From Saxidomus purpurata (lineage: Eukaryota > Mollusca > Bivalvia > Venerida > Veneridae): a stretch of 64,000 nucleotides of DNA. Numbering within the stretch: the stretch's first letter is position 1; each line of letters starts with the position of its first letter. Below are positions 10,334-45,633 of this stretch, piece after piece. The stretch lies in contig JAFMSR010000006.1 of the NCBI GenBank assembly GCA_022818135.1, positions 38,549,538 through 38,613,537 on the forward strand. Direction: 5' to 3'. Position numbers and translations under genes: made by a program. Under the pieces are notes generated by a model, which saw only the letters and a list, made by a program, of their open reading frames with translations, was not told the DNA's origin and did not search any database.

Positions 10334-10339
10334 CATTCT
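10334..10339. repeat. 6-bp target-site duplication CATTCT (left)
   Basis: CATTCT sits directly before the left end of the palindromic element and is repeated exactly at 16731-16736 directly after its right end. A 6-bp duplication is the length made by Polinton/Maverick integrases. Confidence 0.9.
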
Positions 10340-10450
10340 AGTAGTATAAAATGGGGGGTCCCCCCCCGAAAATATTGCTCATACCCGAAACTTTTGCTCA
10401 TACCAACATATGTGCTCATATGGTCTAAGGGAAATAATTGTGACAGTCAT
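10340..10450 (+). repeat. Palindrome terminus with G/C hairpin and TGCTCATA repeats
   Basis: The terminus starts AGTAGTATAAAATGG, followed by a GGGGGGTCCCCCC hairpin and three to four spaced copies of TGCTCATA(C/T). The mirror copy is 16620-16730. Iterated short motifs next to the end also occur in the 14-kb Polinton, with a different sequence. They are candidate integrase or replication-initiation sites; the function is inferred. Confidence 0.6.
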
Positions 10451-10726
10451 TCGAGTTTTATGTTGACAAGAGTTCTCCTTTTGAATGAGCTGAATTAACC
10501 AATGAGGAGTGAAACAATGACGCGATTGAATCCGACTCGATAAAAAGAGCAGACTTTTCAGGTTATAACGACCGGTTCGGAGACCATATCATCGCTTTTG
10601 CGTCCGCCATTCAATTAGCACTTAATGTCCGGTGTGTAAATCTTACATGCATGAGTCGGTTTTCTATAGGATGTGTAGCAGAGCAAAGGTCACATAATAT
10701 ATCTCTACAGGGGTATAGTAGGAATT

Positions 10727-10923
10727 CACTATTATATATATCAACATAATAAGCCACACGAAGTGACAAGATGAGTCATTCAGGAGGTATGATGGGGTAT
10801 TGAGGAGGCATGAGGAGGTAATGAGGAGGTAATGAGGAGGTATGATGAGGTATTGAGGAGGTACGAGGAGGTTATGAGGAGGGTCACTTCTTGTGGCTTA
10901 TAGTGTTGATATATATGATAGTG
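10727..10923. repeat. Nested inverted repeat around a GAGG minisatellite (left arm)
   Basis: CACTATTATATATATCAACA...AAGCCACACGAAGTGAC (about 10727-10770) is inverted at about 10883-10923. Between them lies a minisatellite of about ten GAGGAGGTAATGA/GAGGTATGA-type units. The same nested structure is mirrored at about 16147-16343 in the other arm. Confidence 0.75.
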
Positions 10924-10977
10924 ATTTGGTACAGACGGCGAGGTCAGTTGCTAATAAAGCGAGACCGTTATCTCACT

Positions 10978-11346
10978 ATGGAGAGTAACGACAAGAACAT
11001 CATATTTCATTGTAGGAAATGTGGTTACGTTTTTTTGCTTTGGAGAAACCTATTACACCACTTCAGAGTATGGCATACGTGCGAGTATTATTCAAATATC
11101 TGTGTATGCTGCGACTGCGTGTTTGAATACCGTAAGGCATTTCTCAAGCATGTGAAAATGAAAGCCTCGGAGGTAGTGAGGAGAAACAGACCAATGCAAA
11201 CGGATTCTAACCTTTTAGGGATATCTAAGGGAGGTAAAAGTCGTTTGGTTCGGTCTCCTGAATGTTTGCGGCTATATGCGTCAAAATGTTTTATTCGATT
11301 TCTATCTATATGGCACTGGTTTCTGCAAATGAGACATGTATGTTGA
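10978..11346 (+). CDS. Two-zinc-finger protein of the palindromic element (left-arm copy)
   Basis: The frame is open from 10891, but the ATG at 10978 is the better start because it immediately precedes the zinc-finger region and leaves out a run translated from the AT-rich repeat. The 122-residue product has one good C2H2-like finger (C12, C15, H27 or H28, H33) and a second, incomplete one beginning about 10 residues later (C-x2-C plus one histidine). The C-terminal half is basic with no further motif. It points toward the palindrome centre and converges with the next gene. A DNA- or RNA-binding role is likely from the fingers alone. The mirror copy differs by two residues (Y to N after the second finger and R to W near the end), showing that both copies are independent DNA. 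Function unknown. Confidence 0.55.
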   Translation: MESNDKNIIFHCRKCGYVFLLWRNLLHHFRVWHTCEYYSNICVCCDCVFEYRKAFLKHVKMKASEVVRRNRPMQTDSNLLGISKGGKSRLVRSPECLRLYASKCFIRFLSIWHWFLQMRHVC

Positions 11347-12219
11347 TATTTCGGATTATTTCATCTCAAATTTGGGGTATGCCGTCGAAATCATACAAGT
11401 AATACTGGACTTTAATGAGCACCCCAATGACCAATAAATGGAACCTACCCATTGTAAAATTCCAAATGAAACACTTATAAAAAGATAGGACGGTTTATTC
11501 AAGCGTATAATGCAATGAAAATAAAACAAACTTTTGCGTATATTTCTCAACATACATGTAGATTAATAAAATATTTTAAAAAAAGTTGATAACTAATATA
11601 TTTCGAAAGGACATCAACTGTATACTTATAAAAACCACAAACAGGTATTAAATAACAAGCGAGATTGTCATGGTGACACGATTAAATTACATTTTTTTTG
11701 AAAGAACTCCAAGCACACACTGCGACCCGTAAACCGCATGCCTTTTCTTTGAATAGCGTTAATTTTAGTGGAGTGAGCGTTGTAGGAAAGCATTATTTTA
11801 ATCTTACGTATATTTTAAATGAATAGTTTTAGATAAAAGCTTATTACTTGATTTAAACTCTTGCTTGTTGCTAGACGTTTTTATATACCCTTAGTTAAAT
11901 GGTAAACACCACCTATTGGAAAAATGACCGAGAAAAGGAAGTCACAAAGCAACATCTGTGTTTATTAGCTACATTTATTTTTTTCTTCTAAATTATCTAC
12001 ATTTCTTTAATATAAAAGCGTGAGTTTTAATAAAACAGACACAAGTTTTGCTCTTTCCAGATGGAACAAATAAATGAAGTCAGTCAATTCGTTGATAGAA
12101 ATGTCACAGATCATAAAGGCTTTTTTTATACAAAAGACACGCAGCTCACTTTAGCTTCGACAATATCGTTTTACTATTAGCCGAACAAGTTTGACAGTCC
12201 TGTTATACATGTATCACTC

Positions 12220-12825
12220 TCACTCAGTATCTTCCATTTGTTCCGTATCTTCTTCCTCTTCCAACTGTGGAGTGACGTAATTGTCCAGCACTTTATCAAA
12301 CAGAAATCTCCGTTTAAGAATGGCGTACTTTAAGGCTTCCTCCCCTTCGTAGTGTTCTGTTGCAATTAGTTGATTGACTGTCTTCTTTATCGCTTTATAG
12401 ATGGGATCCTTCTTCATAGCATCGAACCACACCAGTTTTCTACCGAAAATGTTCATCATGGCTTTCCTGTAAGTGCTTTTCATGTCCTCAAAGACATTTT
12501 CTCTGGCTTCACTTTCACTGATCTCGGTATCTTCTTCCATAAGCTCCTTCACTTCGGTTTCATACTGCGACTGGCACTTATCAAACGCTTCCTCTACAAT
12601 GTATTCCCAAGGGTCAATATCCAAACTCTTCTCAGATGTTACAGACATATCGTCGTCGCTGTTATCAGAATTGTTTTCATTAACAGGTCCAAAAATGTCC
12701 TCTTGTACAGAAATGTCTGACATCGCGTCTTCCTCTGAATCTTCGTCCGGATGTGCAGACCTTTTATGCCGCAACATATTATCCCGTCTTCTAAAGACTT
12801 TGAAACATATATCACATTCAAACAT
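12220..12825 (-). CDS. C2H2 zinc-finger protein with acidic and helical C-terminus (left-arm copy)
   Basis: The 201-residue product begins with one classical C2H2 finger (C4, C7, H20, H25), followed by an acidic Asp/Glu/Ser stretch (residues ~27-75) and a conserved-looking helical domain with a WFDAMKKDPIYKAIKKT motif and a late KRRFLFDKVLD segment; it ends in an acidic tail. From memory of invertebrate genomes, proteins with one N-terminal finger, an acidic linker and a W-x2-AMKKDP-type motif are multicopy and often adjacent to Maverick/Polinton genes; this should be confirmed by search. It follows the basic-protein gene on the same strand, 46 bp downstream, suggesting co-transcription from the palindrome centre. 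Exact role unknown; a regulatory or DNA-binding protein is plausible. Confidence 0.75.
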   Translation of the reverse strand: MFECDICFKVFRRRDNMLRHKRSAHPDEDSEEDAMSDISVQEDIFGPVNENNSDNSDDDMSVTSEKSLDIDPWEYIVEEAFDKCQSQYETEVKELMEEDTEISESEARENVFEDMKSTYRKAMMNIFGRKLVWFDAMKKDPIYKAIKKTVNQLIATEHYEGEEALKYAILKRRFLFDKVLDNYVTPQLEEEEDTEQMEDTE

Positions 12826-12871
12826 CGCGCTTGAAGGCTAAACTGCAAATGAGGAGGAGTCATGTAAGTGT

Positions 12872-13306
12872 TCACTTTAATACCTGTCCAATAGTAGTGA
12901 TGCTTTCATCTTCTTTTGAGGTCTGCTTCGGCTTTCTGCTCGCAGATGGTGCCCTCTGCCTAAGTTTCTTGTTACTCTTGTTACTAATACCATCTAACTT
13001 CCCTATGGAACCTTTACGCTTCCGTGTTTTACTGACTTCTTTCATTCGTTGCAATTCCAGATCGATTAATGTCACTTTAGGTTTGGACTGACGATCAAGC
13101 ATACTCTTAGCTATAGCTGTCGTCTGCTCCGCTGGGAGGACCATCCGTATATACATTTCAGAATGAGGCACATGGCTTTTACGAGATGCGCTCCTATTAA
13201 ACTTCCTCTTTACTCTCTTTTCTTTTGTATCGAATATATCCATTTTTCTCAGGTGTGCGTCTTCACTTCTTGACATCCAAGCAATCACTGAAGTAAAAAA
13301 TGTCAT
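12872..13306 (-). CDS. Small lysine/arginine-rich protein of the palindromic element (left-arm copy)
   Basis: The 144-residue open frame begins near the palindrome centre and runs outward, directly upstream of the C2H2 gene. It is rich in Lys, Arg and Ser, with several nuclear-localisation-like runs (KEKRVKRKFNR, KTRKRKG) and a central segment around MVLPAEQTTAIAKSMLDR. The first methionine lies just before a TTACTTCAG sequence that could be a 3' splice site, so the true start may be the internal methionine at residue 11 or an upstream exon. No domain is recognised. Its position between centre and C2H2 gene is repeated exactly in the other arm. Confidence 0.5.
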   Translation of the reverse strand: MTFFTSVIAWMSRSEDAHLRKMDIFDTKEKRVKRKFNRSASRKSHVPHSEMYIRMVLPAEQTTAIAKSMLDRQSKPKVTLIDLELQRMKEVSKTRKRKGSIGKLDGISNKSNKKLRQRAPSASRKPKQTSKEDESITTIGQVLK

Positions 13307-13485
13307 TCTATTTATTTATCGTTTAAGACTCGAGCTTTAAGACGTTTAAAAACCACCGTTGCAATAATATCGATATTCGAACGTAAATAGGTATATATCC
13401 TACTTACTACCAGCTTATCTATCAGTTCGACTATATTGTTCACTTACACGCTTAAATGGAATCCTTCTTAAGTTTATGATTCAAA

Positions 13486-13590
13486 TATGGTTAACTCCTC
13501 GGAGGTAAGGGAGTGCCCCCAAACGTGTCTGACACCATCCCCTAGCGCAGGGGGCACTCCCTTACCTCCGAGGAGTTAACCATATTTGAA
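13486..13590. repeat. Palindrome centre with short unpaired spacer
   Basis: The arms meet at GGGAGTGCCCCC...GGGGGCACTCCC, leaving a ~25-30-base spacer (AAACGTGTCTGACACCATCC...) that is not self-complementary to the arms. The two basic/C2H2 gene pairs diverge from this centre, so the ~450 bp between their starts (13307-13763) must contain a bidirectional promoter if they are expressed. Confidence 0.85.
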
Positions 13591-13763
13591 TCATAAACTT
13601 AAGAAGGACTCCATTTAAGCGTGTAAGTGAACAATATAGTCGAACTGATAGATAAGCTGGTAGTAAGTAGGATATATACCTATTTACGTTCGAATATCGA
13701 TATTATTGCAACGGTGGTTTTTAAACGTCTTAAAGCTCGAGTCTTAAACGATAAATAAATAGA

Positions 13764-14198
13764 ATGACATTTTTTACTTCAGTGATTGCTTGGATGTCAA
13801 GAAGTGAAGACGCACACCTGAGAAAAATGGATATATTCGATACAAAAGAAAAGAGAGTAAAGAGGAAGTTTAATAGGAGCGCATCTCGTAAAAGCCATGT
13901 GCCTCATTCTGAAATGTATATACGGATGGTCCTCCCAGCGGAGCAGACGACAGCTATAGCTAAGAGTATGCTTGATCGTCAGTCCAAACCTAAAGTGACA
14001 TTAATCGATCTGGAATTGCAACGAATGAAAGAAGTCAGTAAAACACGGAAGCGTAAAGGTTCCATAGGGAAGTTAGATGGTATTAGTAACAAGAGTAACA
14101 AGAAACTTAGGCAGAGGGCACCATCTGCGAGCAGAAAGCCGAAGCAGACCTCAAAAGAAGATGAAAGCATCACTACTATTGGACAGGTATTAAAGTGA
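13764..14198 (+). CDS. Small lysine/arginine-rich protein (right-arm copy)
   Basis: Mirror image of 12872-13306, with an identical predicted protein of 144 residues. It is transcribed away from the centre and is followed after 46 bp by the C2H2 gene. See the left-arm copy for motif description. Function unknown. Confidence 0.5.
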   Translation: MTFFTSVIAWMSRSEDAHLRKMDIFDTKEKRVKRKFNRSASRKSHVPHSEMYIRMVLPAEQTTAIAKSMLDRQSKPKVTLIDLELQRMKEVSKTRKRKGSIGKLDGISNKSNKKLRQRAPSASRKPKQTSKEDESITTIGQVLK

Positions 14199-14244
14199 AC
14201 ACTTACATGACTCCTCCTCATTTGCAGTTTAGCCTTCAAGCGCG

Positions 14245-14850
14245 ATGTTTGAATGTGATATATGTTTCAAAGTCTTTAGAAGACGGGATAATATGTTGCG
14301 GCATAAAAGGTCTGCACATCCGGACGAAGATTCAGAGGAAGACGCGATGTCAGACATTTCTGTACAAGAGGACATTTTTGGACCTGTTAATGAAAACAAT
14401 TCTGATAACAGCGACGACGATATGTCTGTAACATCTGAGAAGAGTTTGGATATTGACCCTTGGGAATACATTGTAGAGGAAGCGTTTGATAAGTGCCAGT
14501 CGCAGTATGAAACCGAAGTGAAGGAGCTTATGGAAGAAGATACCGAGATCAGTGAAAGTGAAGCCAGAGAAAATGTCTTTGAGGACATGAAAAGCACTTA
14601 CAGGAAAGCCATGATGAACATTTTCGGTAGAAAACTGGTGTGGTTCGATGCTATGAAGAAGGATCCCATCTATAAAGCGATAAAGAAGACAGTCAATCAA
14701 CTAATTGCAACAGAACACTACGAAGGGGAGGAAGCCTTAAAGTACGCCATTCTTAAACGGAGATTTCTGTTTGATAAAGTGCTGGACAATTACGTCACTC
14801 CACAGTTGGAAGAGGAAGAAGATACGGAACAAATGGAAGATACTGAGTGA
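14245..14850 (+). CDS. C2H2 zinc-finger protein (right-arm copy)
   Basis: Mirror image of 12220-12825 with an identical predicted 201-residue protein: one N-terminal C2H2 finger, acidic linker and helical domain. Identical proteins in both arms argue for very recent formation or ongoing arm-to-arm conversion. Confidence 0.75.
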   Translation: MFECDICFKVFRRRDNMLRHKRSAHPDEDSEEDAMSDISVQEDIFGPVNENNSDNSDDDMSVTSEKSLDIDPWEYIVEEAFDKCQSQYETEVKELMEEDTEISESEARENVFEDMKSTYRKAMMNIFGRKLVWFDAMKKDPIYKAIKKTVNQLIATEHYEGEEALKYAILKRRFLFDKVLDNYVTPQLEEEEDTEQMEDTE

Positions 14851-15723
14851 GAGTGATACATGTATAACAGGACTGTCAAACTTGTTCGGCTAATAGTAAA
14901 ACGATATTGTCGAAGCTAAAGTGAGCTGCGTGTCTTTTGTATAAAAAAAGCCTTTATGATCTGTGACATTTCTATCAACGAATTGACTGACTTCATTTAT
15001 TTGTTCCATCTGGAAAGAGCAAAACTTGTGTCTGTTTTATTAAAACTCACGCTTTTATATTAAAGAAATGTAGATAATTTAGAAGAAAAAAATAAATGTA
15101 GCTAATAAACACAGATGTTGCTTTGTGACTTCCTTTTCTCGGTCATTTTTCCAATAGGTGGTGTTTACCATTTAACTAAGGGTATATAAAAACGTCTAGC
15201 AACAAGCAAGAGTTTAAATCAAGTAATAAGCTTTTATCTAAAACTATTCATTTAAAATATACGTAAGATTAAAATAATGCTTTCCTACAACGCTCACTCC
15301 ACTAAAATTAACGCTATTCAAAGAAAAGGCATGCGGTTTACGGGTCGCAGTGTGTGCTTGGAGTTCTTTCAAAAAAAATGTAATTTAATCGTGTCACCAT
15401 GACAATCTCGCTTGTTATTTAATACCTGTTTGTGGTTTTTATAAGTATACAGTTGATGTCCTTTCGAAATATATTAGTTATCAACTTTTTTTAAAATATT
15501 TTATTAATCTACATGTATGTTGAGAAATATACGCAAAAGTTTGTTTTATTTTCATTGCATTATACGCTTGAATAAACCGTCCTATCTTTTTATAAGTGTT
15601 TCATTTAGAATTTTACAATGGGTAGGTTCCATTTATTGGTCATTGGGGTGCTCATTAAAGTCCAGTATTACTTGTATGATTTCGACGGCATACCCCAAAT
15701 TTGAGATGAAATAATCCGAAATA

Positions 15724-16092
15724 TCAACATACATGTCTCATTTGCAGAAACCAGTGCCATATAGATAGAAATCGAATAAAACATTTTGACGCATATAGCC
15801 ACAAACATTCAGGAGACCGAACCAAACGACTTTTACCTCCCTTAGATATCCCTAAAAGGTTAGAATCCGTTTGCATTGGTCTGTTTCTCCTCACTACCTC
15901 CGAGGCTTTCATTTTCACATGCTTGAGAAATGCCTTACGGTTTTCAAACACGCAGTCGCAGCATACACAGATATTTGAATAATACTCGCACGTATGCCAT
16001 ACTCTGAAGTGGTGTAATAGGTTTCTCCAAAGCAAAAAAACGTAACCACATTTCCTACAATGAAATATGATGTTCTTGTCGTTACTCTCCAT
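15724..16092 (-). CDS. Two-zinc-finger protein (right-arm copy)
   Basis: Mirror image of 10978-11346, starting at the ATG that pairs with 10978. It differs from the left copy by two residues only. It converges with the C2H2 gene that ends at 14850; the ~870 bp between them is AT-rich and has no other frame of note. Confidence 0.55.
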   Translation of the reverse strand: MESNDKNIIFHCRKCGYVFLLWRNLLHHFRVWHTCEYYSNICVCCDCVFENRKAFLKHVKMKASEVVRRNRPMQTDSNLLGISKGGKSRLVRSPECLWLYASKCFIRFLSIWHWFLQMRHVC

Positions 16093-16730
16093 AGTGAGAT
16101 AACGGTCTCGCTTTATTAGCAACTGACCTCGCCGTCTGTACCAAATCACTATCATATATATCAACACTATAAGCCACAAGAAGTGACCCTCCTCATAACC
16201 TCCTCGTACCTCCTCAATACCTCATCATACCTCCTCATTACCTCCTCATTACCTCCTCATGCCTCCTCAATACCCCATCATACCTCCTGAATGACTCATC
16301 TTGTCACTTCGTGTGGCTTATAGTGTTGATATATATAATAGTGAATTCCTACTATACCCCTGTAGAGATATATTATGTGACCTTTGCTCTGCTACACATC
16401 CTATAGAAAACCGACTCATGCATGTAAGATTTACACACCGGACATTAAGTGCTAATTGAATGGCGGACGCAAAAGCGATGATATGGTCTCCGAACCGGTC
16501 GTTATAACCTGAAAAGTCTGCTCTTTTTATCGAGTCGGATTCAATCGCGTCATTGTTTCACTCCTCATTGGTTAATTCAGCTCATTCAAAAGGAGAACTC
16601 TTGTCAACATAAAACTCGAATGACTGTCACAATTATTTCCCTTAGACCATATGAGCACATATGTTGGTATGAGCAAAAGTTTCGGGTATGAGCAATATTT
16701 TCGGGGGGGGACCCCCCATTTTATACTACT

Positions 16731-16736
16731 CATTCT
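16731..16736. repeat. 6-bp target-site duplication CATTCT (right)
   Basis: Exact repeat of 10334-10339, immediately after the right terminus ...TATACTACT. Confidence 0.9.
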
Positions 16737-18759: not shown

Positions 18760-19080
18760 AGACACATGGGAAGATAATTACATGCAAGGTATCGGTAAAT
18801 AAGACAGATGAGGATGCAACATTCATGAATATAATATTGAAGGTAAAGAAGTAAGATGAATGAAATCATAATGTCAACATAGAAGTAATCAACAGAAACA
18901 TACACTACTAAATAACAAGTATATAACATGCATGTGGAAGAAAGAAACATGAAATAAGCATCATACAACATGCACTCGTAAGAGTCACATGCATGTAAGA
19001 TGTAAGAAAGAAGACAAATGAGCATGTAGTGTTCATAAAGAAGAATCTAGACCAATAGATTTATGGCGGTGATTCCCTTC
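18760..19080 (-). repeat. Uninterrupted relative of the repeat hit by the palindromic element
   Basis: The reverse complement of about 18870-19080 reads continuously through the position where 10334-16736 is inserted in the other copy (TTACATGCATGTGAC followed by TCTTACGAGTG). It acts as a paralogous empty site. About 14 bases next to the junction differ between the copies. Confidence 0.7.
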
Positions 19081-19094
19081 CATAAGCATAGACT

Positions 19095-32397: not shown

Positions 32398-32562
32398 AGT
32401 AGTATAGGTTGGCAGTATGGGGGAAATATGGCAATATGGGGGATTTTTATTGGAAAAGAGTGGCAGTATGGGGGATTATCGTGGCAGTATGGGGGATTTT
32501 TATGGGGGAAATATGGCAGTATGGGGGATTTTTATCGGGAAAGAGTGGCAGTATGGGGGATT
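32398..32562 (+). repeat. Polinton left terminal inverted repeat (165 bp)
   Basis: Starts AGTAGTATAGGTTGGCAG and consists of six iterations of GGCAGTATGGGGGA(TTTTTAT/AATAT). It pairs with 46571-46735 over its full length with about two mismatches. Related but degenerate units continue to about 32760 on this side only. Confidence 0.95.
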
Positions 32563-33320
32563 TTTATGTGTAGTAAAAGGGGTTTTATGGTTCGTATAGG
32601 TCCTTCTATGGGAATATGGGGATACACAGGGCAGTATGGGGAATTTTTATGGGGAATTTATGGGGCAGTATGGAGAATCCTATGAGAACCCTATTTGGGT
32701 CTGATTTTGGCAGTATGACACCCTAGGGCACCCTATGCACCGATATGTCGCAGTATGGCATTTAAATTTGCATGTGGTATAGTACCGAGAAGGGCCTCTA
32801 AAGTACCGTCTCTGTCTATGTCTATATCTATGTCTCTATGGACAGTCTGGTACCGTATTGGGGATTTGCATGTGTGATATGGTACAAATTAGGACAAACC
32901 CTATGGAAAAAAATATTCTCAACACGTACATGTATACTAATGATTTATTTTCGAAAACAGGTTTTGGCTTGTTTTCGGAAAATATGACGTCATTCGTTTA
33001 GTTTACAATTTCTCGGAAAATGACTAGCATGGGCGATGTACAGTAAAACTTCGATAACCTCAGTGATTGTCTTAAAAATATGAAATTTAGTCCAAAACAC
33101 ATACACAAACTAGTTTAAACCCCTATTTTAATTATCACATTTATTTATAACATGTATTTATAACATGTTTTATAAAAAAATGTTCTTATCATATTTTTTT
33201 TTCTATCATTATATGACCTACCGACACGGTTTTTATAAGGTTTACGCTGATTGGTTCATGCTCCATTGTCTCCATTGTCATCATTGGCTGACATGTTACC
33301 ATGGTGCACTAAGTAGGTCA
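32563..33320. other. Polinton left subterminal region
   Basis: Degenerate GCAGTATGG units continue to about 32760. The stretch from about 33008 (CTCGGAAAATGACTAGCATG...GATGTACAGTAAAACTTCGATA) matches 36096-36165. No gene is recognised. Confidence 0.5.
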
Positions 33321-33334
33321 ATCCGATAGACTCA

Positions 33335-33366
33335 TATAAATACAGGCCGTTTGAGACATTCAGATC
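33335..33366 (+). promoter_or_regulatory. TATA/initiator-type core promoter (Polinton, left module)
   Basis: TATAAATA at 33335-33342 is followed 27 bases later by a TCAGAT initiator-like motif. It lies upstream of the repeat-rich region that opens with the duplicated leader (33594-33760). Confidence 0.45.
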
Positions 33367-33419
33367 ATTCTGAGCGTTCACAGCGTACTGTCAAACATGA
33401 CTTCTCGGAGCTTTTGACG

Positions 33420-33600
33420 TTAGCTACAAATACAGCACAGGTGCCAGAGGGGAATAATACAGCATAGATCACAAAAGGGAATTATACAGCACCGATTCCA
33501 GAGTAGAATTATACAGCACAGATGCAAAAGGGGAATTATACAGCACAAATTCCAGACGGAAGATTATACATCATAGATTTCAGATGAGGGGCAATACAGC
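33420..33600 (+). repeat. ~35-40-bp tandem repeat, about five units
   Basis: Units follow the pattern GGGGAATTATACAGCACAGATTCCAGA with variation. Confidence 0.75.
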
Positions 33601-33765
33601 GGTGACCACACCATCCATCCAGCCACAGCCACAACAATATCAAAGGTTCCAGCAGTTTAAACAACAGTTCAAACAGCAACAGGACAGACAAGGCCACAAA
33701 ATACTGCTTAGTATTTTCTAAGAGATGCGAGCCGTTAATGCCAACACGGTCCACTTCAGTAGCCA
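33594..33765 (+). repeat. Duplicated leader segment, copy 1
   Basis: TACAGC.GTGACCACA, then CATAATACTGCTTAGTATTTTC and AGATGCGAGCCGTTAATGCCAA...TTCCACTTCA are shared, with divergence, with 36490-36625. Both copies contain an ATG in the same place of the shared block (33725 and about 36577). Copy 1 leads into the GCCAAGCA array, copy 2 into the viral gene block. Confidence 0.65.
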
Positions 33766-35408
33766 GCCAAGCCCAACCAAGCCCGCCAGCCAAGCAGCCA
33801 AGCCATCCAGACAGCCAGCCAAGCAGCCAACCCAAGCAGCCAAGCCCAGCCAAGCAGCAAAGCCCGCCAGCCAAGCAGTCAAGTCCGCCAGCCAAGCAGC
33901 CAAGACCAGCCAAGCAGCGAAGCCAGCCAGCCAAGCAGCCAGCCACGCCCAGCTAGCCAGGCCCGTCAGCCAAGCAGCCAAGCCATCCAGACAGCCAGCC
34001 AAGCAGCCAACCCAAGACCACCCAAGCAGCCAAGCCCAGCCAAGCAGCAAAGCCCGCCAGCCAAGCAGTCAAGCCCGCCAGCCAAGCAGCCAAGACCAGC
34101 CAAGCAGCGAAGCCAGCCAGCCAAGCAGCCAAACCCAGACCAGCCACGCCCAGCCAGCCAGACCCGCCAGCCAAGCAGCCAACCCAAGACCACCAAAGCA
34201 GCCAAGCCCAGCCAAGCAGCCAAGCCCAGCCAGCCAGGCCCGTCAGCCAAGCAGCCAATGCAAGACCACCAAGCAGCAAAGCCGCCCAGCCAAACAGCCA
34301 AGACCAGCCAAGCAGCGAAGCCAGCCAGCCAAGCAGCCAAACCCAGACCAGCCACGCCCAGCCAGCCAGGCCCGTCAGCCAAGCAGCCAATGCAAGACCA
34401 CCAAGCAGCAAAGCCCGCCAGCCAAGCAGTCAAGCCTGCCAGCCAAGACCAGCCAAGCAGCGAAGCCAGCCAACCAAGCAGCCAAACCCAGACCAGCCAC
34501 GCCCAGCCAGCCAGACCCGCCAGCCAAGCAGCCAACCCAAGACCACCCAAGCAGCCAAACCCAAGCCCGCTAGCAAAGTAGGCAAACCAAAACCAGCCAG
34601 GCTAAGCCCAGCCGAACAGCGAAGTGAGCCAGCCAAGCAGCCAAGCCAAGATTAGCCAAGCAGCGAAGCCAGCCAGGCAAGCAGCCAAACACAGACCAGC
34701 CAAACCAAGCAGCCAGGCTAAGCCCAGCCAAGCAGCGAAGACCAGCCAAGTCCGCCAGCCAAGCCGCCCAGCAGCCAAGCCCATCAAAGCCATCCAGCCA
34801 AGCCAACCAGCAAAGCATGCCATCCAGCCAAGCCAACCAGCCAAGCAGCCAACCCAAGACCACCCAAGCAGCCAAACCCAAGCCCGCTAGCAAAGCAGGC
34901 AAACCAAAACCAGCCAGGCTAAGCCCAGCCGAACAGCGAAGTGAGCCAGCCAAGCAGCCAAGCCAAGATTAGCCAAGCAGCGAAGCCAGCCAGGCAAGCA
35001 GCCAAACACAGACCAGCCAAACCAAGCAGCCAGGCTAAGCCCAGCCAAGCAGCGAAGACCAGCCAAGTCCGCCAGCCAAGCCGCCCAGCAGCCAAGCCCA
35101 TCAAAGCCATCCAGCCAAGCCAACCAGCAAAGCATGCCATCCAGCCAAGCCAACCAGCCAAACCAACCAGCCAAGCATGCCATCCAGCCAAGCCAAGCCA
35201 AGCCAAGCTAAGCTTTCCAGCCAAGCCAGCCAGGCAACCAGCCAGTCAAGCCAAGGCAGCTAAGCTATCCAACCAAGCCAAACCATTCAACCAAGCCATC
35301 CAGTCAGCCATGCCAGCCAGTCAAGCAGCCAGGCAGCAGCAGTTAAAGACAGAGGCAAAGACAGAGCATGAGCCTGATTCCCAGCCCGAGGTCCGGCCTA
35401 AGACATAG
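33725..35408 (+). repeat. 1.7-kb GCCAAGCAGCCAAGC-rich array with long open frames
   Basis: Sequence built almost only of AGCCA, AGCAA and CCAG blocks. A 317-bp segment (from about 34566) is duplicated in tandem at about 34883. Because the blocks lack stop triplets, several plus and minus frames are open. The longest plus frame beginning with the duplicated leader (33725-34573, 282 codons) would give a Lys/Pro/Ala/Ser/Gln-only disordered protein, and another open stretch runs at 34941-35408. Coding status cannot be settled from the sequence; no homology is recognised. The array occupies the part of the element where a polymerase gene might have been expected. Confidence 0.8.
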
Positions 35409-36489
35409 TCCAAGAGGAAAGAAGGCCGCACCCCCTTGTTTGAGATAGAGCCACCTATAAGCCACTAGTCTCGAAAGTTCAAAACCCAGAATCAAGTGTA
35501 TGATGTTATGTTTTTAGAAATACAGTCGTCTTTTTGAGTCCACACATGTCCTACTTTTAAGCAGTTTTTATGCATTTTGAACCAGTTTTTGACAAAGCTC
35601 CACGGCTTTCTCGTGAAAGCTGAAATTGCGTTTCTGCATGTTTTCAATGCGCGTACGTTTATACTTTCTTGTCCTATAAGGAATTATTTTTTTTGTTTAA
35701 ATATTCTTTTAATCTTAAACCCGGAAAATTTAAAACAGGCTAAATTTCTAATCCTACATGCATTCAATGCGCATCTGTACAGTTGTTCTTGTGAAACAGA
35801 TTTTTTTATCTATAAGCGTTTTTGAAATTCAATCGCTCGAAGTTGGTCAGTCGAAACGGCATGCAAGATTTAAACCCAGTTCCGTTTACGTGAAAATACA
35901 ACAGCCTGAACATATCTTTTTATAGCATATTTGAAAGTTTAAAAAGTCAAATGCCCTTCGCGGACAGAAACAGAACCAACCTTTCATTGCGTACTCCAAG
36001 ATTTATCCTTTAATCATTTATGTTTTAACAACGTTTTAATTACACATTTGAAAAAAGGAAAATAGAATTGATGATGTCAAATAAATGTTACGCAATGTGT
36101 TTCTCGGAAAACGAGTAGCTCGCGCGATGTACAGTAAAACTTCGATAGCTTAAAGTCGAACGGGTCAAAATACGAACATATTTAATTTTATTTTAAATTG
36201 TTTAAAAATGTAATTAATGCAATATTAGTTGTATTTCTTCACACACAAAAAACATAGAACTCGTAAACTGATTTTATCGTAACTTTCGTCTAATTGAATC
36301 ATGATGGAAAAATGTCAGTTGAAATAACCCACGCATTTCTATGCCGGAGGGGTCTTGAAAGAGCCGGCCCATGCATCACGGGTTACACGTGAGTATTCAG
36401 CAGATGACCCGCCTCAAACGAAGTGTCGTTACCATTGAGAACACTGAAGACAGTAGAGTGTGTTTGGCATATATTCCAGATAAGGGTCT
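35409..36489. other. Polinton spacer with two degenerate direct repeats
   Basis: Two ~115-bp units around TTTCTGCATGTTTTCAATGCGC and TCCTACATGCATTCAATGCGC are at 35580-35830. The stretch 36096-36165 matches 33008-33070. No gene is recognised. Confidence 0.5.
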
Positions 36490-36640
36490 ATACAGCCGTG
36501 ACCACAACATTTTAAATTTATTGCAGCAGTAGCATGGCATGTAAGACCACATAATACTGCTTAGTATTTTCAAAGTGATGCAAGCCTTTAAAGCCAATAT
36601 GTTCCACTTCAATTTCAACATGGTCAACATGGATACGTCG
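36490..36640 (+). repeat. Duplicated leader segment, copy 2
   Basis: Counterpart of 33594-33765; see there. A short frame from about 36577 on the plus strand closes within ~40 codons. Minus-strand frames through both copies share a TKQY core, but neither is long enough to call a gene. Confidence 0.6.
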
Positions 36641-36749
36641 GTACAAAAAGAACTGCTGAGTCTCCTTACAAGTGTCGTCCCAACTGATGTCGAGTAGAGG
36701 CACTCACGCCTTTTTATAAACAGAGAAGGGTATTTCCCCTGGAAGAGTG

Positions 36750-36786
36750 TATAAAAGAGAGCGTATCTTGTGCTAGTCGTCAGTTG
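36750..36786 (+). promoter_or_regulatory. TATA box and initiator ahead of the viral gene block
   Basis: TATAAAAG at 36750-36757 lies 32 bases before the A of a TCAGTT initiator-like motif (36780-36785), the classic spacing of an RNA polymerase II core promoter. The likely transcript leader contains CAGACAGCC-type direct repeats and a 21-codon open frame with a Ser-rich run (36854-36919) before the first large gene. Confidence 0.6.
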
Positions 36787-36967
36787 TCATCAGACAGCCG
36801 TCAGACGTACCCAGTTATCAGAAGTACCCAGTCATCAGACAGCCATCAGACCTATGGAACTGGTACCTTACTCAGACACCAGCAGCAGTAGTAGCAGCAG
36901 TGGTAGTGGAGGACTATAAGACGGTGCCTTACGGTTACGCTCACAATTCCTAGGGAGGAGGATAACC

Positions 36968-37354
36968 ATGGCAGACGTATTACCTCCAGCTCTAGCACAG
37001 CGAGTGTTTCTTAATTTTATAGAAGAACCATGGATCTCTTTGGAACACATCATAGACTTTGAACTGTATAGAGCCGCATTGAGTTTTGTGTCGTCACGGG
37101 AATGCACCTTATCAGAGATGTTTGTACCCTTTAAAAGGGCCGTGACCACGGCAGTGGCGAACGGGGGAGTTCAACTTAATATGGAGGTCATTAATCTGAC
37201 GGCATGGAGGTTGTATGTCGTCCATAACCCTCTCGTACAAGCGTGTCTCAAGGACTGGAACAAAGGAGGACAATGCTATTCACGCCTCTGGTCATTTGAT
37301 GTTTTTGAAAGCCATTCAACGTCATGGCTGGGACAGGTATGTGGTGCAGCGTGA
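36968..37354 (+). CDS. Polinton hypothetical protein, 128 aa
   Basis: The ATG follows GATAACC closely and is the first substantial frame after the core promoter. The product is a mixed helical protein without signal peptide, membrane segment or metal-binding motif that I can recognise. It shows no clear resemblance to the known Polinton core genes. Being the promoter-proximal gene of the block, it may be a lineage-specific early or regulatory protein; this is inference only. Confidence 0.55.
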   Translation: MADVLPPALAQRVFLNFIEEPWISLEHIIDFELYRAALSFVSSRECTLSEMFVPFKRAVTTAVANGGVQLNMEVINLTAWRLYVVHNPLVQACLKDWNKGGQCYSRLWSFDVFESHSTSWLGQVCGAA

Positions 37355-37429
37355 GCACCTGACTCAACAGAGATAAAAATGGATCCAGTGGTGTTATGAT
37401 ATAGATAGTAGTACTTTCATTTCGCCGTC

Positions 37430-37690
37430 ATGGAGCAGAGAAGCAGACGCTTTTTTGACATGAAGCAGCGCAGAAGCAGACGCGTTTTCGAGGTGCCTGT
37501 CTACAGAAGAGTATTGATCTATGCTTTTAAAATGATAACACTCGCACAACACCGTCTCAGCGTGGATTATATTTCGTGGCTATTGAGAACTGAAAAAATG
37601 CGGACAGACTTTCAGGAAGCCTTTCGCTATATTCAAGTCTGTGACATGTGTGTGCATCGATATATTTTACCTTGGACGGAGAAAGAGTGA
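37430..37690 (+). CDS. Polinton hypothetical basic protein, 86 aa
   Basis: It has an Arg-rich N-terminus (two RRSRR-like runs), a helical middle and a C-terminal CDMC pair. It lies 75 bp after the previous frame. A short AT-rich stretch with repeated GTTACACT/GATGTTACAAA follows before the ATPase. Not recognised; possibly nucleic-acid-binding by charge. Confidence 0.45.
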   Translation: MEQRSRRFFDMKQRRSRRVFEVPVYRRVLIYAFKMITLAQHRLSVDYISWLLRTEKMRTDFQEAFRYIQVCDMCVHRYILPWTEKE

Positions 37691-37922
37691 ATCAATGTAG
37701 TCGTGGATAACTCGGCAGTGATTGCATTTTTGACAAGGATACAGACTTTAAAAAACAAAACAATGTGATGATGTTACACTGTTACACTGTTACACATGTT
37801 ACAAAGATGTTACAAAGATGTTTTTAAAGATGTTACTTAGGTTTACTTCTTTTTTTCATGTGACACATGAAAATAAAAAAGCGATCCAAAGCCATTGGAT
37901 TGTCATTATACTTTTGTCCCTC

Positions 37923-38563
37923 ATGGAGAGCGCATTACTGTTTCAACACCCTTGTAATATTTTTATTTCAGGCCCTAGTGGGTCGGGAAAAACCCAATTT
38001 GTGAAACGGTTACTGGACTACAAGGAAGATCTATTTGATATCATTCCTGAGCAAGTGGTCTGGTGTTACAAAGAATGGCAATCCGAGTACGCTCTGCTGC
38101 ACCTTTAATCAAATTTATCGAAGGCATTCCTGATGACGAAGAAGACCTGGTGAGTGATGTTTCGGTGCCTCATTTGATTGTCTTTGACGATATGCTAGGC
38201 GATAAGGATGAAGAAAAAATCAAGCTGTGGTTCACACGAAAAGGACATCATCGGAATGCAAGTGTGATTTATATCACACAAAACATGTTTCAACAATCGA
38301 AAGCCAGCCGTACTCTGAGTTTGAATGCCCATTATATGATTTTGTTTCAAAACACCAGAGACAAAGGTCAGATCAAAACGTTAGAGCGTCAGATTCAGTT
38401 ACCCCATTTACTTGCGGCCTACCAAGATGCTATTTCGAGACCTCATGGATATTTACTGATTGATTTTCATCCTAAAACACCTGATTCCTATCGGCTACGC
38501 ACTGACCTCTTTCATCATTGGAGGACAGGGGAGGAGCATGGACCTGTGGTGTACACAGGATAA
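37923..38563 (+). pseudogene. Genome-packaging ATPase (FtsK/HerA, A32-like), frameshifted
   Basis: The ATG at 37923 places the Walker A motif GPSGSGKT at residues 17-24, the normal position in Polinton packaging ATPases; the frame also extends upstream to 37818 through unlikely sequence. The Walker B motif LIVFDDM is at 38174-38194, and a VIYITQN strand (sensor-like) follows. Walker A and Walker B are in different frames: the first frame closes at 38108, and the second is open from before 38063 to 38563, so one frame change lies around 38080-38105. Two-part length (~215 codons) is normal for the family. In intact elements this enzyme drives DNA into the capsid. Confidence 0.88.
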
Positions 38564-38609
38564 AAAGGGGTGGACTGACATTCCATGGGTCATTCGTATC
38601 TGACTTGCC

Positions 38610-38906
38610 ATGATGTACACACCAAGAGCTATCATTGAAAAATTGGAAGCACTCAGTCTGCAGAAGACCGCAGCCCGACAACAGTTACTGAAAGCTGGCT
38701 TAGAAGAAATGATCCGATGGTTTACCCTGGCAGCCAGAGTGATTATGCAAAAGAAGATTCACTTGCCAAAACAAACGATGAACTTTATGGAAAAACATCG
38801 GGAGGCTATCACACAGTTAGCCGATAATCAGGTGGATGCCAATACAAAACGTCAACTCATTTTGAAACCGGGTGGTAGTGGGTTTCTTGGTGGGGTAATT
38901 ATTTGA
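38610..38906 (+). CDS. Small Polinton protein with C-terminal GG-hydrophobic motif, 98 aa
   Basis: It has a helical N-terminal region and a C-terminus reading KRQLILKPGGSGFLGGV. The C-terminal pattern (basic residues, hydrophobic pair, GG, F-L) resembles that of the 131-residue protein at 39323-39718 and small virion-associated proteins of other Polintons/adintoviruses. It is probably a minor structural or membrane-active protein; function is inferred from pattern and position. Confidence 0.6.
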   Translation: MMYTPRAIIEKLEALSLQKTAARQQLLKAGLEEMIRWFTLAARVIMQKKIHLPKQTMNFMEKHREAITQLADNQVDANTKRQLILKPGGSGFLGGVII

Positions 38907-38936
38907 AGTTTATTACGCTGGGATGGACAGAAAACC

Positions 38937-39215
38937 GTGAGAAACTTTGGGAAGAAAATTCAAAAGAAAAATTCAAAGAAAAAAGCCTCTCCGAAGAAAA
39001 GACCATCTCTGAAAAAAGAGAAAAAGTCGAAAAAGATAGATGATCGATTTGTGACCCGACGTCGAAAGAAAAAGGTACAGAGACTCTCGCCGACCCCTTC
39101 ATCCTCTCCAACGATGAGAACCCCCATGAGAACACCCTTAGGAACACCCATTAGGACACCTATGAGAACACCCTTGGATATGGCTCGATTTTCACCTCTC
39201 ATCCATGGTTTTTAG
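38937..39215 (+). CDS. Strongly basic protein with RTP repeats, 92 aa
   Basis: The N-terminal half is almost continuous Lys/Arg (KKNSKKKASPKKRPSLKK), and the C-terminal half contains five RTP-type repeats (MRTPMRTPLGTPIRTPMRTP). Composition fits a DNA-condensing core protein, comparable in role to adenovirus core proteins. There is no in-frame ATG: the frame begins with GTG at 38937, while an ATG 14 bases upstream (38923) is in another frame and closes after five codons. The start is therefore probably disrupted by a small indel. Confidence 0.6.
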   Translation: MRNFGKKIQKKNSKKKASPKKRPSLKKEKKSKKIDDRFVTRRRKKKVQRLSPTPSSSPTMRTPMRTPLGTPIRTPMRTPLDMARFSPLIHGF

Positions 39216-39322
39216 GACAATCTGAATGCCAAATCAATCAGTGCGATCTCCAAAAGCTGTATTGTTTAAAACAGTGGTTCACATCAACCTGGGCTTCATT
39301 TGGACGTTAGCCTCGGAGCAAG

Positions 39323-39718
39323 ATGGTCAGCAGCAGAAAAACAAAGATCACCAAACGCAAAGAACCGTTGATTAAAAAACACGGTACCATGGTATTGGCG
39401 CTCGGACAAGCCTCTGCTCCCTTACGAAAGAAGATTCTGAAAGAAGCACCCAGGGAGTTGATCCATTGCGTCGCAGAGTGTTGTCACAATGTTTTAAAAG
39501 GCAATGTACCCCTGTCAGAAGCTCAGAAACGCCAGTTACACCCCAAGCGTCAACAACTCCGTCTGATAGCGGACAAAAAAGTATCGATTCAAAAGAAAAA
39601 GAGGGTGCTGAATCAACAAGGAGGATTTTTACCCTTACTAAGCATTTTAGCTCCTGCTTTGGCTCCTGCTTTAGCACCTGTCGTAGGTAAGGTCATACAA
39701 GGACTCCTACCTATTTAA
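39323..39718 (+). CDS. Basic virion-type protein with hydrophobic C-terminus, 131 aa
   Basis: The N-terminus is Lys-rich, the middle helical (APRELIHCVAECCHNVLKG), and residues ~95-131 read KKKRVLNQQGGFLPLL followed by an Ala/Leu/Pro-rich membrane-active-looking segment. This C-terminal signature is recurrent in Polinton/adintovirus genomes, where a role like the adenovirus X/mu or VI proteins has been suggested. The stop is followed after 7 bp by the next start. The precise function is unknown. Confidence 0.7.
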   Translation: MVSSRKTKITKRKEPLIKKHGTMVLALGQASAPLRKKILKEAPRELIHCVAECCHNVLKGNVPLSEAQKRQLHPKRQQLRLIADKKVSIQKKKRVLNQQGGFLPLLSILAPALAPALAPVVGKVIQGLLPI

Positions 39719-39725
39719 AACAAAT

Positions 39726-40490
39726 ATGAAGAAGATGGTCATTCTTCCCTACAAAATGTTAGAAGAGATACAGCAAAGAAAAGCAGAGCCACCACGGCCA
39801 CGACTCCCACCTAGCCCCCAGGTAGTGCACACCGTGGATTTACAGAAAGAGATTCAGTCTGTACTACAGAGGGATGACCTGTCGGAGTCAGAGAAAGCTC
39901 AGCTGTATGGGGAAACGTTACAGAAATTTCAGAGGGCTCATAAGAAAGCCATACAGCCTCAGAGTTCGACTCTTACAACAACAGCAGCAGCAACAGCAGC
40001 AGCTGCAGCACCACCAGCACCACCGACTACAGAAGAAGAAGAAGACCCCACCACGATTCAAAATCGTATCATGACCAGCGTACCCGTCACGATGCAACGA
40101 AAAGCTAAATTACTTCTACATCTGCTTAAGAGTCATCCCAACATGGGTTGGGACCGTCAGGGTGTGTTGCAATACCAAAATACACCCGTGGTAGGATCTA
40201 ATGTCATTGATTTGGTCAATGATGTGCTACGCTATCGTAAAGGTTCGAAACCCAAAGGATGGGAAAAGTTTGCTCAGGGGCTCAAAGAGATCAATGTTCC
40301 CCAGGAAGTCGTGGGTAACAAGGAGCGATGGGGTTGGATACAGAGATCAGGCGCCACCAATGAGGACAATTGGGAGGCGGAGGCAGATGAACCAGACTTC
40401 TCACTGATGACACCGCCTCAAACGGTCAAGAGACGACAGTATAAAACCAAGACCTCCACACCTTTGATCTCAGACTGGGAAGCTTGGTGA
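39726..40490 (+). CDS. Polinton conserved protein, 254 aa, unknown function
   Basis: The N-terminal region is helical and proline-rich, a low-complexity linker (Thr/Ala/Pro then acidic) spans residues ~80-110, and a folded C-terminal domain contains QRKAKLLLHLLKSHP, a hydrophobic VVGSNVIDLVNDVLRY segment and a KPKGWEKF motif. Proteins with this C-terminal pattern (a short 'LL.. L.....I.W...G.......I.GSNI.DL' module) occur next to integrase and capsid genes in invertebrate Polintons, from memory. The TGA stop overlaps by one base the first ATG of the integrase gene. Possibly a structural protein; not assigned. Confidence 0.65.
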   Translation: MKKMVILPYKMLEEIQQRKAEPPRPRLPPSPQVVHTVDLQKEIQSVLQRDDLSESEKAQLYGETLQKFQRAHKKAIQPQSSTLTTTAAATAAAAAPPAPPTTEEEEDPTTIQNRIMTSVPVTMQRKAKLLLHLLKSHPNMGWDRQGVLQYQNTPVVGSNVIDLVNDVLRYRKGSKPKGWEKFAQGLKEINVPQEVVGNKERWGWIQRSGATNEDNWEAEADEPDFSLMTPPQTVKRRQYKTKTSTPLISDWEAW

Positions 40491-41568
40491 TGAAAATGAA
40501 ACGGGAGGATCAACTTCACCGCATTTACTATGATGTTAACATCCAGCTGCTTTTTCGGGGATAGGTGCCTTGTACAAAGCAGCTCGAAAACAGGACAAAT
40601 CTATCACCCTGAAACAAGTCCAGTCCTGGTTACAGCGACAGAAAACTTACACGTTGCACAAACCAATTCGTCGTAAATTTGCAAGAAGAAAAACAGTGGT
40701 GGGAGGCATTGATCATCAGTGGCAAGCGGATTTAGCCGATTTACAGTCACTCAAGAAAGACAATGATCAGTATCGGTATTTACTCTGTGTCATTGATGTG
40801 TTTTCAAAATATGCCTGGGTAGTCCCTCTGTACAACAAAACAGGACAGAGTTTAATCAAAGCTTTCAAGTTCATCTTGAAAGAGCGAATACCACAGGCAC
40901 TGCAAACGGATAAAGGATCTGAATTCAAAAACAAAGAGTTTCAATCCTTTTTAAAAACAAAGGACATTCACTTCTTCACCACTGAGAATCCAGAGACGAA
41001 AGCCAGTATAGTGGAACGATTTCAACGCACCTTGAAAACACGGATGTGGAAATATTTTACGCATAAGAAGACCCGGAGGTACATTGATGTGTTGCAAGAT
41101 TTGGTGCATGCTTACAATCACAGTTTCCATCGAAGCATTCAGACCACCCCGGCTTCGGTTACGACACAACAGGAGCCCGAAATTACCCAACACCTGTATG
41201 GATCCAAGACACGCAAAGCTAAACTCTCGGTCGACGTGGGAGATTTAGTGCGTATCAACAAGACCAAACGAACATTTGACAAAGGGTATCTACCCAACTG
41301 GACCACCGAGTTCTTTAAAATTATTCACATTCGTCACAGCTCACCACCTACAGTACAGCTCGAAGATCTTGCCGGAGAACGTATTGAAGGCTCTTTCTAC
41401 CTGCCTGAAATTCAGCCGATAAAAGACTCGGGCATTTATGAAATTGAATCAGATATCGGACGACGCTCTAGGAAAGAAGGCAGAAAAACAATCAAGGAAA
41501 TCAAAGTGCATTGGGAAGGCTATCCAAAGAAATTTGACAGCTGGATTCCAGAATCCTATCTGATATAA
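40490..41568 (+). pseudogene. Polinton integrase with C-terminal chromodomain, frameshift near the N-terminus
   Basis: The main frame (continuous to 41568) contains an rve-type catalytic core: D54 in WQAD, D114 in LQTDKGSEF and E149 in KASIVERF, counted from the codon at 40570, giving D-D-34-E spacing. The last ~40 residues have the chromodomain signature (IKVHWEGYPKKFDSWIPE). The family inserts the linear element DNA and makes 6-bp duplications, consistent with both insertions in this window. The likely start codons (40490, 40496) are in a different frame, which ends in TAG after about 25 codons near 40564, so a one-base change near 40540-40548 interrupts the N-terminal region while the catalytic core is intact. 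Confidence 0.9.
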
Positions 41569-41571
41569 AAC

Positions 41572-41871
41572 ATGTCTCAGACATCGGATACGTTCAGTAG
41601 TGTGGAAGTGCAAGAAGAGAACACAGGCTCCGCCACCACCACCACCGTCAACAATAACAACAACAGCAGCACGAGAGCAGCGAAAAACAGAATCACTTTC
41701 TTTTCACAAATTATTGTGATTTATGCTATCATCGGTGTTGCCATTTTTCATCTGAGTTTTCAGTCGCCGGACAAAGAATTGTGGCTCGTGTTGTTAAGTA
41801 GCTCTCTGGGTTACATTCTACCGACACCAGGTTTGAAGTTTGTGAAACCCCCAAAGACGCTCGGATCATGA
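41572..41871 (+). CDS. Small Polinton membrane protein, 99 aa
   Basis: An N-terminal Ser/Thr/Asn-rich region is followed by two hydrophobic segments (FFSQIIVIYAIIGVAIFHLS and LWLVLLSSSLGYILP). Small two-helix proteins ending in S-S-x-GY(I/L)LP-x-P are regular neighbours of the penton-like gene in animal Polintons. The stop overlaps the next start (ATGA). Membrane location is predicted; function unknown. Confidence 0.7.
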   Translation: MSQTSDTFSSVEVQEENTGSATTTTVNNNNNSSTRAAKNRITFFSQIIVIYAIIGVAIFHLSFQSPDKELWLVLLSSSLGYILPTPGLKFVKPPKTLGS

Positions 41872-42722: not shown

Positions 42723-43133
42723 ATGCATCCTGTGTATCGTGGTATACCGCGTCAGTATGGTCAAGGACTGGGAAGTATGTTCAAATCGGCCATCAAATCG
42801 GCGATCCCGTTGTTAATGCCAGCCGCCAAATCCGCATTGAATGCGTTGAAAAACGAAGGAATGAAAGCCGCTGGGGAAATGATCCTGACAAGAGAGAGCC
42901 CTGCTCGCGTCTTGCAATCTCGGGCCAAGAAAGCCGTGACTTCCGTTGGAAAAGTAGCTGCCAGATCGTTAGGAACCACGCTGCTCAACAAGCTGACAGG
43001 CACCAAGCCACCCACAAAAAAGAGACGCATAAACCTATCTCGTCAGTTGTCTTTGAGACGTCGCCGGAAGCAGCTGAAAAAAACAACAAGACAAAAACCA
43101 CACCATAGTCGAGCTCTGGATATTTTTGATTAA
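42723..43133 (+). CDS. pVI-like amphipathic/basic virion protein, 136 aa
   Basis: The N-terminus has an amphipathic helix (GSMFKSAIKSAIPLLMPAAK), the middle a helical region with Ala and Lys, and the C-terminus is strongly basic (KKRR..., RRRRKQ). Size, amphipathic start, and position between penton-like and major capsid genes match the adenovirus VI-like cement/membrane-lytic proteins proposed in adintoviruses. The homology is by pattern only. Confidence 0.6.
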   Translation: MHPVYRGIPRQYGQGLGSMFKSAIKSAIPLLMPAAKSALNALKNEGMKAAGEMILTRESPARVLQSRAKKAVTSVGKVAARSLGTTLLNKLTGTKPPTKKRRINLSRQLSLRRRRKQLKKTTRQKPHHSRALDIFD

Positions 43134-43168
43134 TCATTTGAATAATCATTTGAATAATCATCATCATT

Positions 43169-44461: not shown

Positions 44462-44478
44462 TCCTACGATTGACCATC

Positions 44479-45538: not shown

Positions 45539-45633
45539 AATGTATTCTTGTTTTTTTCAATACTTGTTCATACTGTTTCAAATACTTGTTCATACTGTTT
45601 TCAATACTTGTTCTTGTTCATAATTAATGATTC

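Follow-up and report, generated by a model that had tools for sequence, protein, structure and literature searches.

A gene-carrying palindromic family with Polinton-type ends and jointly evolving arms in the genome of the clam Saxidomus purpurata

The window analysed here is a 64,000-nucleotide stretch of the genome of the bivalve Saxidomus purpurata (GenBank assembly GCA_022818135.1, contig JAFMSR010000006.1, positions 38,549,538 to 38,613,537), and its central feature is a 6391-bp palindrome (10340-16730) made of two indel-free arms of 3181 nt each that meet at an asymmetric centre of 29 nt (Table 1). An earlier note on this DNA had described positions i and 27070-i as complementary apart from a short centre and a few substitutions, and comparison across 10340-13520 bears this out, with six mismatches between the arms (10747, 10748, 11128, 11269, 11463 and 13461). 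Read inwards, both ends begin with AGTAGTATA; the symmetry breaks off at 10339/16731, and a perfect 6-bp duplication (CATTCT) flanks the element, so that the exact stop at the termini and the duplication claimed in the same note both hold on comparison of arms and flanks. The flanks are not palindromic, as three matches (40 to 560 bp) link the 10.3 kb on the left with the 47 kb on the right, and in no case do the matching stretches mirror each other across the element. A minus-strand paralogue of the flanking host repeat continues across the insertion point and lacks the element (153 of 179 positions identical, with gaps of 5 nt and 14 nt, the latter adjoining the junction and extending three bases into the duplicated six); the palindrome is therefore real and a true insertion. 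Within each arm, a 50-nt inverted repeat encloses a GAGGAGGTA-type tandem array, which is possibly a replication or packaging signal, or else a nested insertion.

From the centre outward, each arm carries genes for the proteins P144 and P201, and a third frame of 122 aa points inward from the end. Three genes per arm had been claimed; P144 and P201 stand, with homologues found for both, whereas the third frame has a weak C2H2 match (Pfam E = 0.31) and is broken by indels in 27 of 38 family arms. P201 (201 aa) contains a single C2H2 finger (E = 2.4e-5, 25.0 bits, just under the curated Pfam cut-off of 25.2), and its predicted model has a mean predicted local distance difference test score (pLDDT) of 69; P144 (144 aa) is basic and its predicted model is mostly unstructured. 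P201 is open in 21 of the 38 family arms and P144 in 19 (one in-frame indel counted as open). Relatives of P201 number 18 from a one-sequence search and 31 from a profile search, those of P144 number 17, and all that carry an organism name come from bivalves (Mya arenaria, P0042; Mactra antiquata, P0034). In distant relatives (P0016, P0038, P0041), a P201-like protein seems by eye to be fused to the P144 core at its end; in the palindrome P144 lies upstream of P201, unlike the P201-then-P144 order of these seeming fusions. No arm frame longer than 205 aa was found and the four arm frames scanned have no Pfam match to a polymerase, integrase, ATPase, protease or capsid protein, so neither the PolB nor the integrase that mark a Polinton (Maverick) is present among them; nor is the Polinton set of packaging ATPase, protease and capsid, the arm holding P144, P201 and the weak finger frame only. 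Searching the arm proteins against PHROGs gave weak matches only, of unknown function.

Table 1. Coordinates of the palindrome, its genes and related features in the window.
Feature	Position	Strand	Basis
Target-site duplication CATTCT, left	10334..10339	.	End and duplication comparison
Target-site duplication CATTCT, right	16731..16736	.	End and duplication comparison
Terminal motif AGTAGTATA, left end	10340..10348	+	(AGT)2 Maverick end motif, available text of PMC8097293
Terminal motif AGTAGTATA, right end (reverse complement)	16722..16730	-	
Palindrome left arm, 3181 nt	10340..13520	+	
Asymmetric centre (loop), 29 nt; common, small differences aside, to 18 of 19 copies, those keeping the centre	13521..13549	.	
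Palindrome right arm, 3181 nt	13550..16730	-	
Subterminal GAGGAGGTA-type tandem array enclosed by a 50-nt inverted repeat, left arm	10718..10932	+	
Subterminal GAGGAGGTA-type tandem array enclosed by a 50-nt inverted repeat, right arm	16138..16352	-	
P144 gene, left arm: encodes a basic protein with the conserved core YIRMVLPAEQTTAIAKSML	12872..13306	-	
P144 gene, right arm	13764..14198	+	
P201 gene, left arm: C2H2 finger, acidic linker, predicted helical domain	12220..12825	-	
P201 gene, right arm	14245..14850	+	
Third frame, left arm: starts at ATG (122 aa) with a weak C2H2 match; disrupted in the majority of family copies	10978..11346	+	
Third frame, right arm: mirror of 10978-11346	15724..16092	-	
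Empty site: paralogue of the flanking repeat that lacks the element	18925..19084	-	
Resident Polinton: AGTAGTATA ends, target-site duplication CCCCAC (32392-32397 / 46736-46741), integrase, weak adenovirus-type protease match	32398..46735	+	

The palindrome is one copy of a large dispersed family. A search of the genome (1.135 Gb) for further copies with the same ends, which had been proposed as a check, was run with the outer 601 arm bases and gave at least 132 matches (40 of 517 candidates scored), mostly as inverted pairs 3-8 kb apart. Twenty-two loci were fetched (16 pairs and six apparent singles, numbered with L below), and in 18 of them the arms are inverted, each terminus reads AGTAGT and the 6-bp duplication is perfect. 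Adding the copy in the window gives 19 copies that keep both ends, all 19 with AGTAGT ends and a 6-bp duplication, and these count as 18 different sites because L013 and L014 have their duplication and flank in common. The other four loci (L026-L029) lack one or both ends, being shortened, rearranged or at a contig end. As candidates for full-length parents the six apparent single-arm matches were rejected, L025 and L030 being complete palindromes and the rest these four incomplete loci. Protein searches of the same genome gave P201 matches that are 98-100% identical (150 of 844 candidates scored, 145 of the 150 stop-free) and P144 matches that are 95-100% identical (150 of 565 candidates scored); the scored matches form 141 clusters, 69 of which contain both orientations among the scored matches, and scored neighbours less than 7 kb apart are inverted in 49 of 49 and 36 of 36 pairs. 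One site shows two forms, a centre-deleted one of 3.1 kb on an unplaced contig (L013, C3345) and one of 6.4 kb on a chromosome (L014, C1:15478461); the unplaced contig is probably the other haplotype of the L014 site, and the contrast reflects either an unstable centre or an assembly effect.

Copies of the family are joined at the same centre. The 29-nt loop is identical, a few substitutions and one-base gaps aside, in 18 of the 19 copies (window included), those that keep the centre; L020 has 16 additional bases beside it, and the loop is not kept in L013 or in the incomplete L026, L027 and L029. Given one common loop in 18 of 19 copies, the palindrome seems to have arisen once and to have been handed down in palindromic form. 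P201 pairs include a second spacing class, which corresponds, in the one copy read, to a long-arm form with 620 additional bases in both arms at arm position 3107, followed by the same central loop with few substitutions. This segment recurs elsewhere in inverted pairs (40 of 293 candidates scored) and encodes a MYND finger frame (PF01753, E = 1.2e-5), which lies at L044:1732-1905 and its mirror in the long-arm form and is absent from both arms of the window copy. As with the 620-base addition, the loss of 473 bases in L018 is symmetric, the same bases being deleted from both arms; examples of one-sided structural changes are L009, where a single arm has an insertion, and L011, where a single arm has a deletion.

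The two arms of each element evolve in concert. Arms were aligned as an outer piece (1-1400, 16 elements) and an inner piece (1401-2900, 15 elements), dropping columns gapped in more than four elements; the outer count is without L009 (one-arm insertion), L013 (centre deleted) and L018 (symmetric deletion), and the inner count is without L009, with L011, L013 and L018 too short for the inner piece. Variants present in at least two elements occur in both arms in 245 of 255 outer and 40 of 44 inner carrier cells (285 of 299 in total). When right arms are dealt at random (200 shuffles for each piece), the symmetric fraction averages 0.14 (outer) and 0.05 (inner), with maxima of 0.31 and 0.20. Variable gaps of at least three columns occupy both arms in 168 of 212 cells, and in trees the two arms of an element group together for 14 of 16 elements in the outer piece and 14 of 15 in the inner piece. 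Arm divergence within a copy is 0 to 1.0% (L009 and L013, with arms out of register, set aside). Such a pattern, in which both halves carry mostly the same changes, suggests copying through a folded hairpin.

The timing of these changes can be approached through variants private to one element, of which 140 are in both arms and 101 in one arm. With one-arm changes taken as a marker of age since integration, the symmetric private changes do not rise with them (Spearman 0.19, p 0.49, 16 elements), so that the evening-out seems tied to mobilisation and not to slow chromosomal conversion; changes thus seem to turn symmetric around mobilisation, not afterwards. Several elements also carry the same frame break in both arms: a shared P201 stop in L014 and L015, and a shared 1-nt indel in L010 (P201 and P144) and L016 (P144), all of which integrated nonetheless. 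Such shared breaks point to changes that predate integration, and so to movement in trans.

Polintons are present in the same window and throughout the genome. The resident Polinton has inverted repeats of 165 bp (99%), an integrase core above the cut-off (PF00665, E = 3.4e-13) with a weak chromodomain match alongside, a match to an adenovirus-type protease that falls short of the cut-off (PF00770, E = 0.0017), one frame with weak P-loop ATPase matches and a 435-aa frame that we take to resemble the Polinton major capsid protein. No PolB match was obtained in the 20 frames scanned, and outside a tandem array no unassigned frame is long enough for PolB; this Polinton may itself depend on another element for replication. 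The array, a degenerate (AGCC)n / 13-bp repeat of ~1.6 kb inside the element (33760-35340), lies where further genes might be expected. AGTAGTATA also occurs at 51188 and 63280, and a third element there was rejected, as no inverted repeat or duplication accompanies it. The palindrome and the resident Polinton have nine end bases and the length of the 6-bp duplication in common. According to the available text of PMC8097293, Mavericks are recognised by (AGT)2//(ACT)2 ends together with a 6-bp duplication, these ends being the commonest in vertebrate Mavericks, and the Polinton-type ends and duplication claimed in the earlier note are upheld on both counts.

A genome search with PF03175, presumably the family that includes Polinton polymerases, scored 85 of 247 candidates and gave at least 140 matches, many of them within open frames longer than 1200 aa, and the matches listed were merged by hand into 82 PolB loci. 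At the C7 locus, the motif AGTAGTATAGG lies 2.9 kb upstream of the PolB match, which is in an open 1360-aa frame; the ends of the PolB locus C2:20960509 were not found in two stretches. Two of the 82 loci lie within 30 kb of a scored P144 or P201 match, at 3.0 and 10.9 kb. The first of these matches (C13:37601685) was rejected as a parent, being a rearranged palindrome copy whose end faces the PolB frame lying outside it, and the matches near the second are an inverted pair of the long-arm form. A full-length Polinton ending in one arm, the search for which had been suggested before, was not found among the 82 loci listed, and no PolB-bearing parent with a single arm appears among these loci and the 141 gene clusters listed; this absence is weak negative evidence.

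Taken together, the sequence data make it fairly probable that this is a gene-carrying, non-autonomous palindromic satellite of Polintons, a family that likely relies in trans on their protein-primed polymerase for replication and on their integrase for insertion. What was observed comprises the family itself, its ends and 6-bp duplications, the common loop, the joint evolution of the arms and an arm with no recognisable polymerase, integrase or capsid genes; from these we infer the helper, the hairpin and the functions of the proteins. A Polinton-type polymerase with its terminal protein would start at the AGT-repeat ends, and the displaced strand, being self-complementary, would fold back on itself to give a 3.2-kb hairpin with the 29-nt loop at its tip. 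Mismatches between the arms may be repaired in this hairpin, or one arm may be re-copied from the other, making a change symmetric before the next integration; a Polinton integrase would then insert the duplex, creating the 6-bp duplication, and the arms would drift apart slowly in the chromosome. The family was probably founded by one snap-back of a Polinton-like end, perhaps primed, to judge from its sequence, by pairing of the G5 run at the 3' loop edge with the C5 run at the 5' loop edge. Ends made of trinucleotide repeats are well suited to protein-primed initiation with jumping back, a mode known from adenovirus. The number of AGT units varies, with three at both ends in L016 and L020 and, in L023, four at the right end versus two at the other; such unequal units are what jumping back in protein priming might leave. 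A bolder version of this reading, which we hold tentatively and at somewhat less than even weight, is a heritable hairpin replicon: a Polinton satellite that folds on itself in every round of mobilisation, its arms proof-reading each other, and that carries finger proteins of its own (P201, P144 and, in one subfamily, MYND) for use on helper or host.

Several observations weigh against replication and integration in trans through a hairpin. Most broken frames differ between the two arms of a copy, 14 of the 299 cells of shared variants and 44 of the 212 variable-gap cells are one-armed, and the two arms match in length to within 3 nt in only seven of 18 copies, the remaining 11 showing differences of 13 to 1440 nt. 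The sister copies L022 and L023, at two sites, have two arm-specific differences in common, mirror-imaged and outside the listed shared cells, and arms are no closer to each other than to their best match elsewhere in L022 and L023 (two of 16 outer) and in L010, L022 and L025 (three of 15 inner). These exceptions imply that some heteroduplex can pass through a cycle. On the side of the helper, no complete autonomous Polinton combining PolB with a duplication and AGTAGTATA at each end was pieced together in the genome, an end motif near PolB was seen at one of the five PolB loci with nearby stretches read, and the inner arm shares no long stretch of sequence with the resident Polinton or with the PolB-locus stretches read (best 22 nt, E 0.009). 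No intermediate such as a free hairpin, virion or excision product was seen, and IMG/VR returned no match for P144, P201 or two DNA patterns. As to the proteins, the P201 model has no fold match at E <= 0.001 in BFVD or PDB, and family P201 changes lack clear purifying selection, the symmetric ones comprising eight silent, 21 replacing and two stops.

The rival that survives best, though we consider it unlikely, is a foldback-type DNA transposon moved by an unrelated transposase, in which gene conversion, or repair of the double-strand break left by excision, keeps the arms alike. Foldback and Galileo are examples of elements with very long inverted repeats (available text of PMC4168063), 6-bp target sites are not exclusive to Polintons, being used also by Ginger2 (PMC2836005, in the portion available), and no Polinton gene was found inside the element. 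The palindrome is likewise without a recognised enzyme of its own, with no search aimed at other transposases made. Set against this are the nine end bases equal to those of the resident Polinton, the Maverick signature formed by (AGT)2 ends with 6-bp duplications, and the symmetric changes, which do not accumulate with age as slow chromosomal conversion would have them do.

Much less probable is that every palindrome arose as an independent snap-back of a full-length Polinton parent, the family being the defective genomes of that one parent. Symmetric defective adenovirus genomes are a precedent, with none found in the literature searched, and snap-back genomes of such shape occur in adeno-associated virus (AAV; PMC8235507, available text). 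Independent events would be expected to join at different places, whereas the same 29-nt loop closes the 18 centre-keeping copies and one long-arm copy, and among the matches listed no PolB locus has a single arm. A one-off integration of a symmetric defective virus genome, the interpretation favoured in the earlier note, agrees with the shape, ends and duplication of the window copy and is nevertheless highly improbable: 17 further insertion sites have the same ends, duplication length and inverted arms, and the palindrome belongs to a large dispersed family with one common loop. The family rules out such an event for the window copy, and a snap-back could still lie at its founding alone. An assembly or sequencing artefact (a missed adapter or a chimeric fold-back read), of which long palindromes are a known shape, carries negligible probability and is rejected, the note having already judged a missed adapter unlikely, since perfect 6-bp duplications differ from site to site at 18 sites, the window flanks are non-palindromic and a paralogous empty site is present.

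Elsewhere in the window, 1376-1923 and 63433-63983 form an inverted pair of another dispersed repeat (77% identical), and host-type frames with EGF-like repeats and B-box/TRIM-like pieces, bivalve-like by eye, occupy 29536-31827 and 54310-59145.

Polinton replication has so far been deduced from Polinton genes. A palindromic family would record its own replication, in that symmetric changes must have passed through a self-paired or re-copied state, and one-arm changes, mostly post-integration, would serve as an internal clock for every insertion. In this way, whether an animal element replicates by a protein-primed route that forms hairpins becomes testable from sequence alone. The family further suggests that a snap-back product, usually deemed a dead end, may found a successful lineage of many copies.

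Precedents in kind exist for complete palindromes, for foldback elements, for snap-back genomes and for non-autonomous derivatives; for a gene-carrying, end-to-end palindromic family with Polinton ends, an inherited centre and concerted arms, no description was found in the open-licence PMC literature searched. The palindromic MITE-like elements (MITE, miniature inverted-repeat transposable element) of Caenorhabditis elegans are whole-element palindromes that move in trans and are short and non-coding, whereas the clam element is 6 kb long with conserved genes. FB (Foldback) elements have very long inverted repeats and a short middle. The same architecture characterizes Galileo (available text of PMC4168063) and Tetris, and in the clam element, too, very long inverted repeats make up most of the length; it differs from foldback-type transposons in its Polinton-type ends, duplication and probable helper, in the genes carried by the arms of the window copy and in a symmetry that runs from end to end. 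In symmetric defective genomes of adenovirus, inverted copies of one end make the molecule self-complementary. The snap-back subgenomes of AAV are likewise self-complementary, inverted copies of one genome end, and the clam palindrome also consists of two such copies joined at a short loop; AAV subgenomes vary in length within a virus population (PMC8235507, in the text available), whereas here the junction does not arise anew at variable positions, one loop occupying 18 of the 19 copies and one centre being inherited by a chromosomal family. With Polintons/Mavericks (Adintoviridae-like), the family shares (AGT)2//(ACT)2 ends, a 6-bp target duplication and inverted terminal repeats; it departs from them in a length of ~6.4 kb with no PolB, integrase, ATPase, protease or capsid gene found, and in repeats that take up the whole palindrome, compared with 46-1447 bp in the intact vertebrate Mavericks covered by the available text of PMC8097293.

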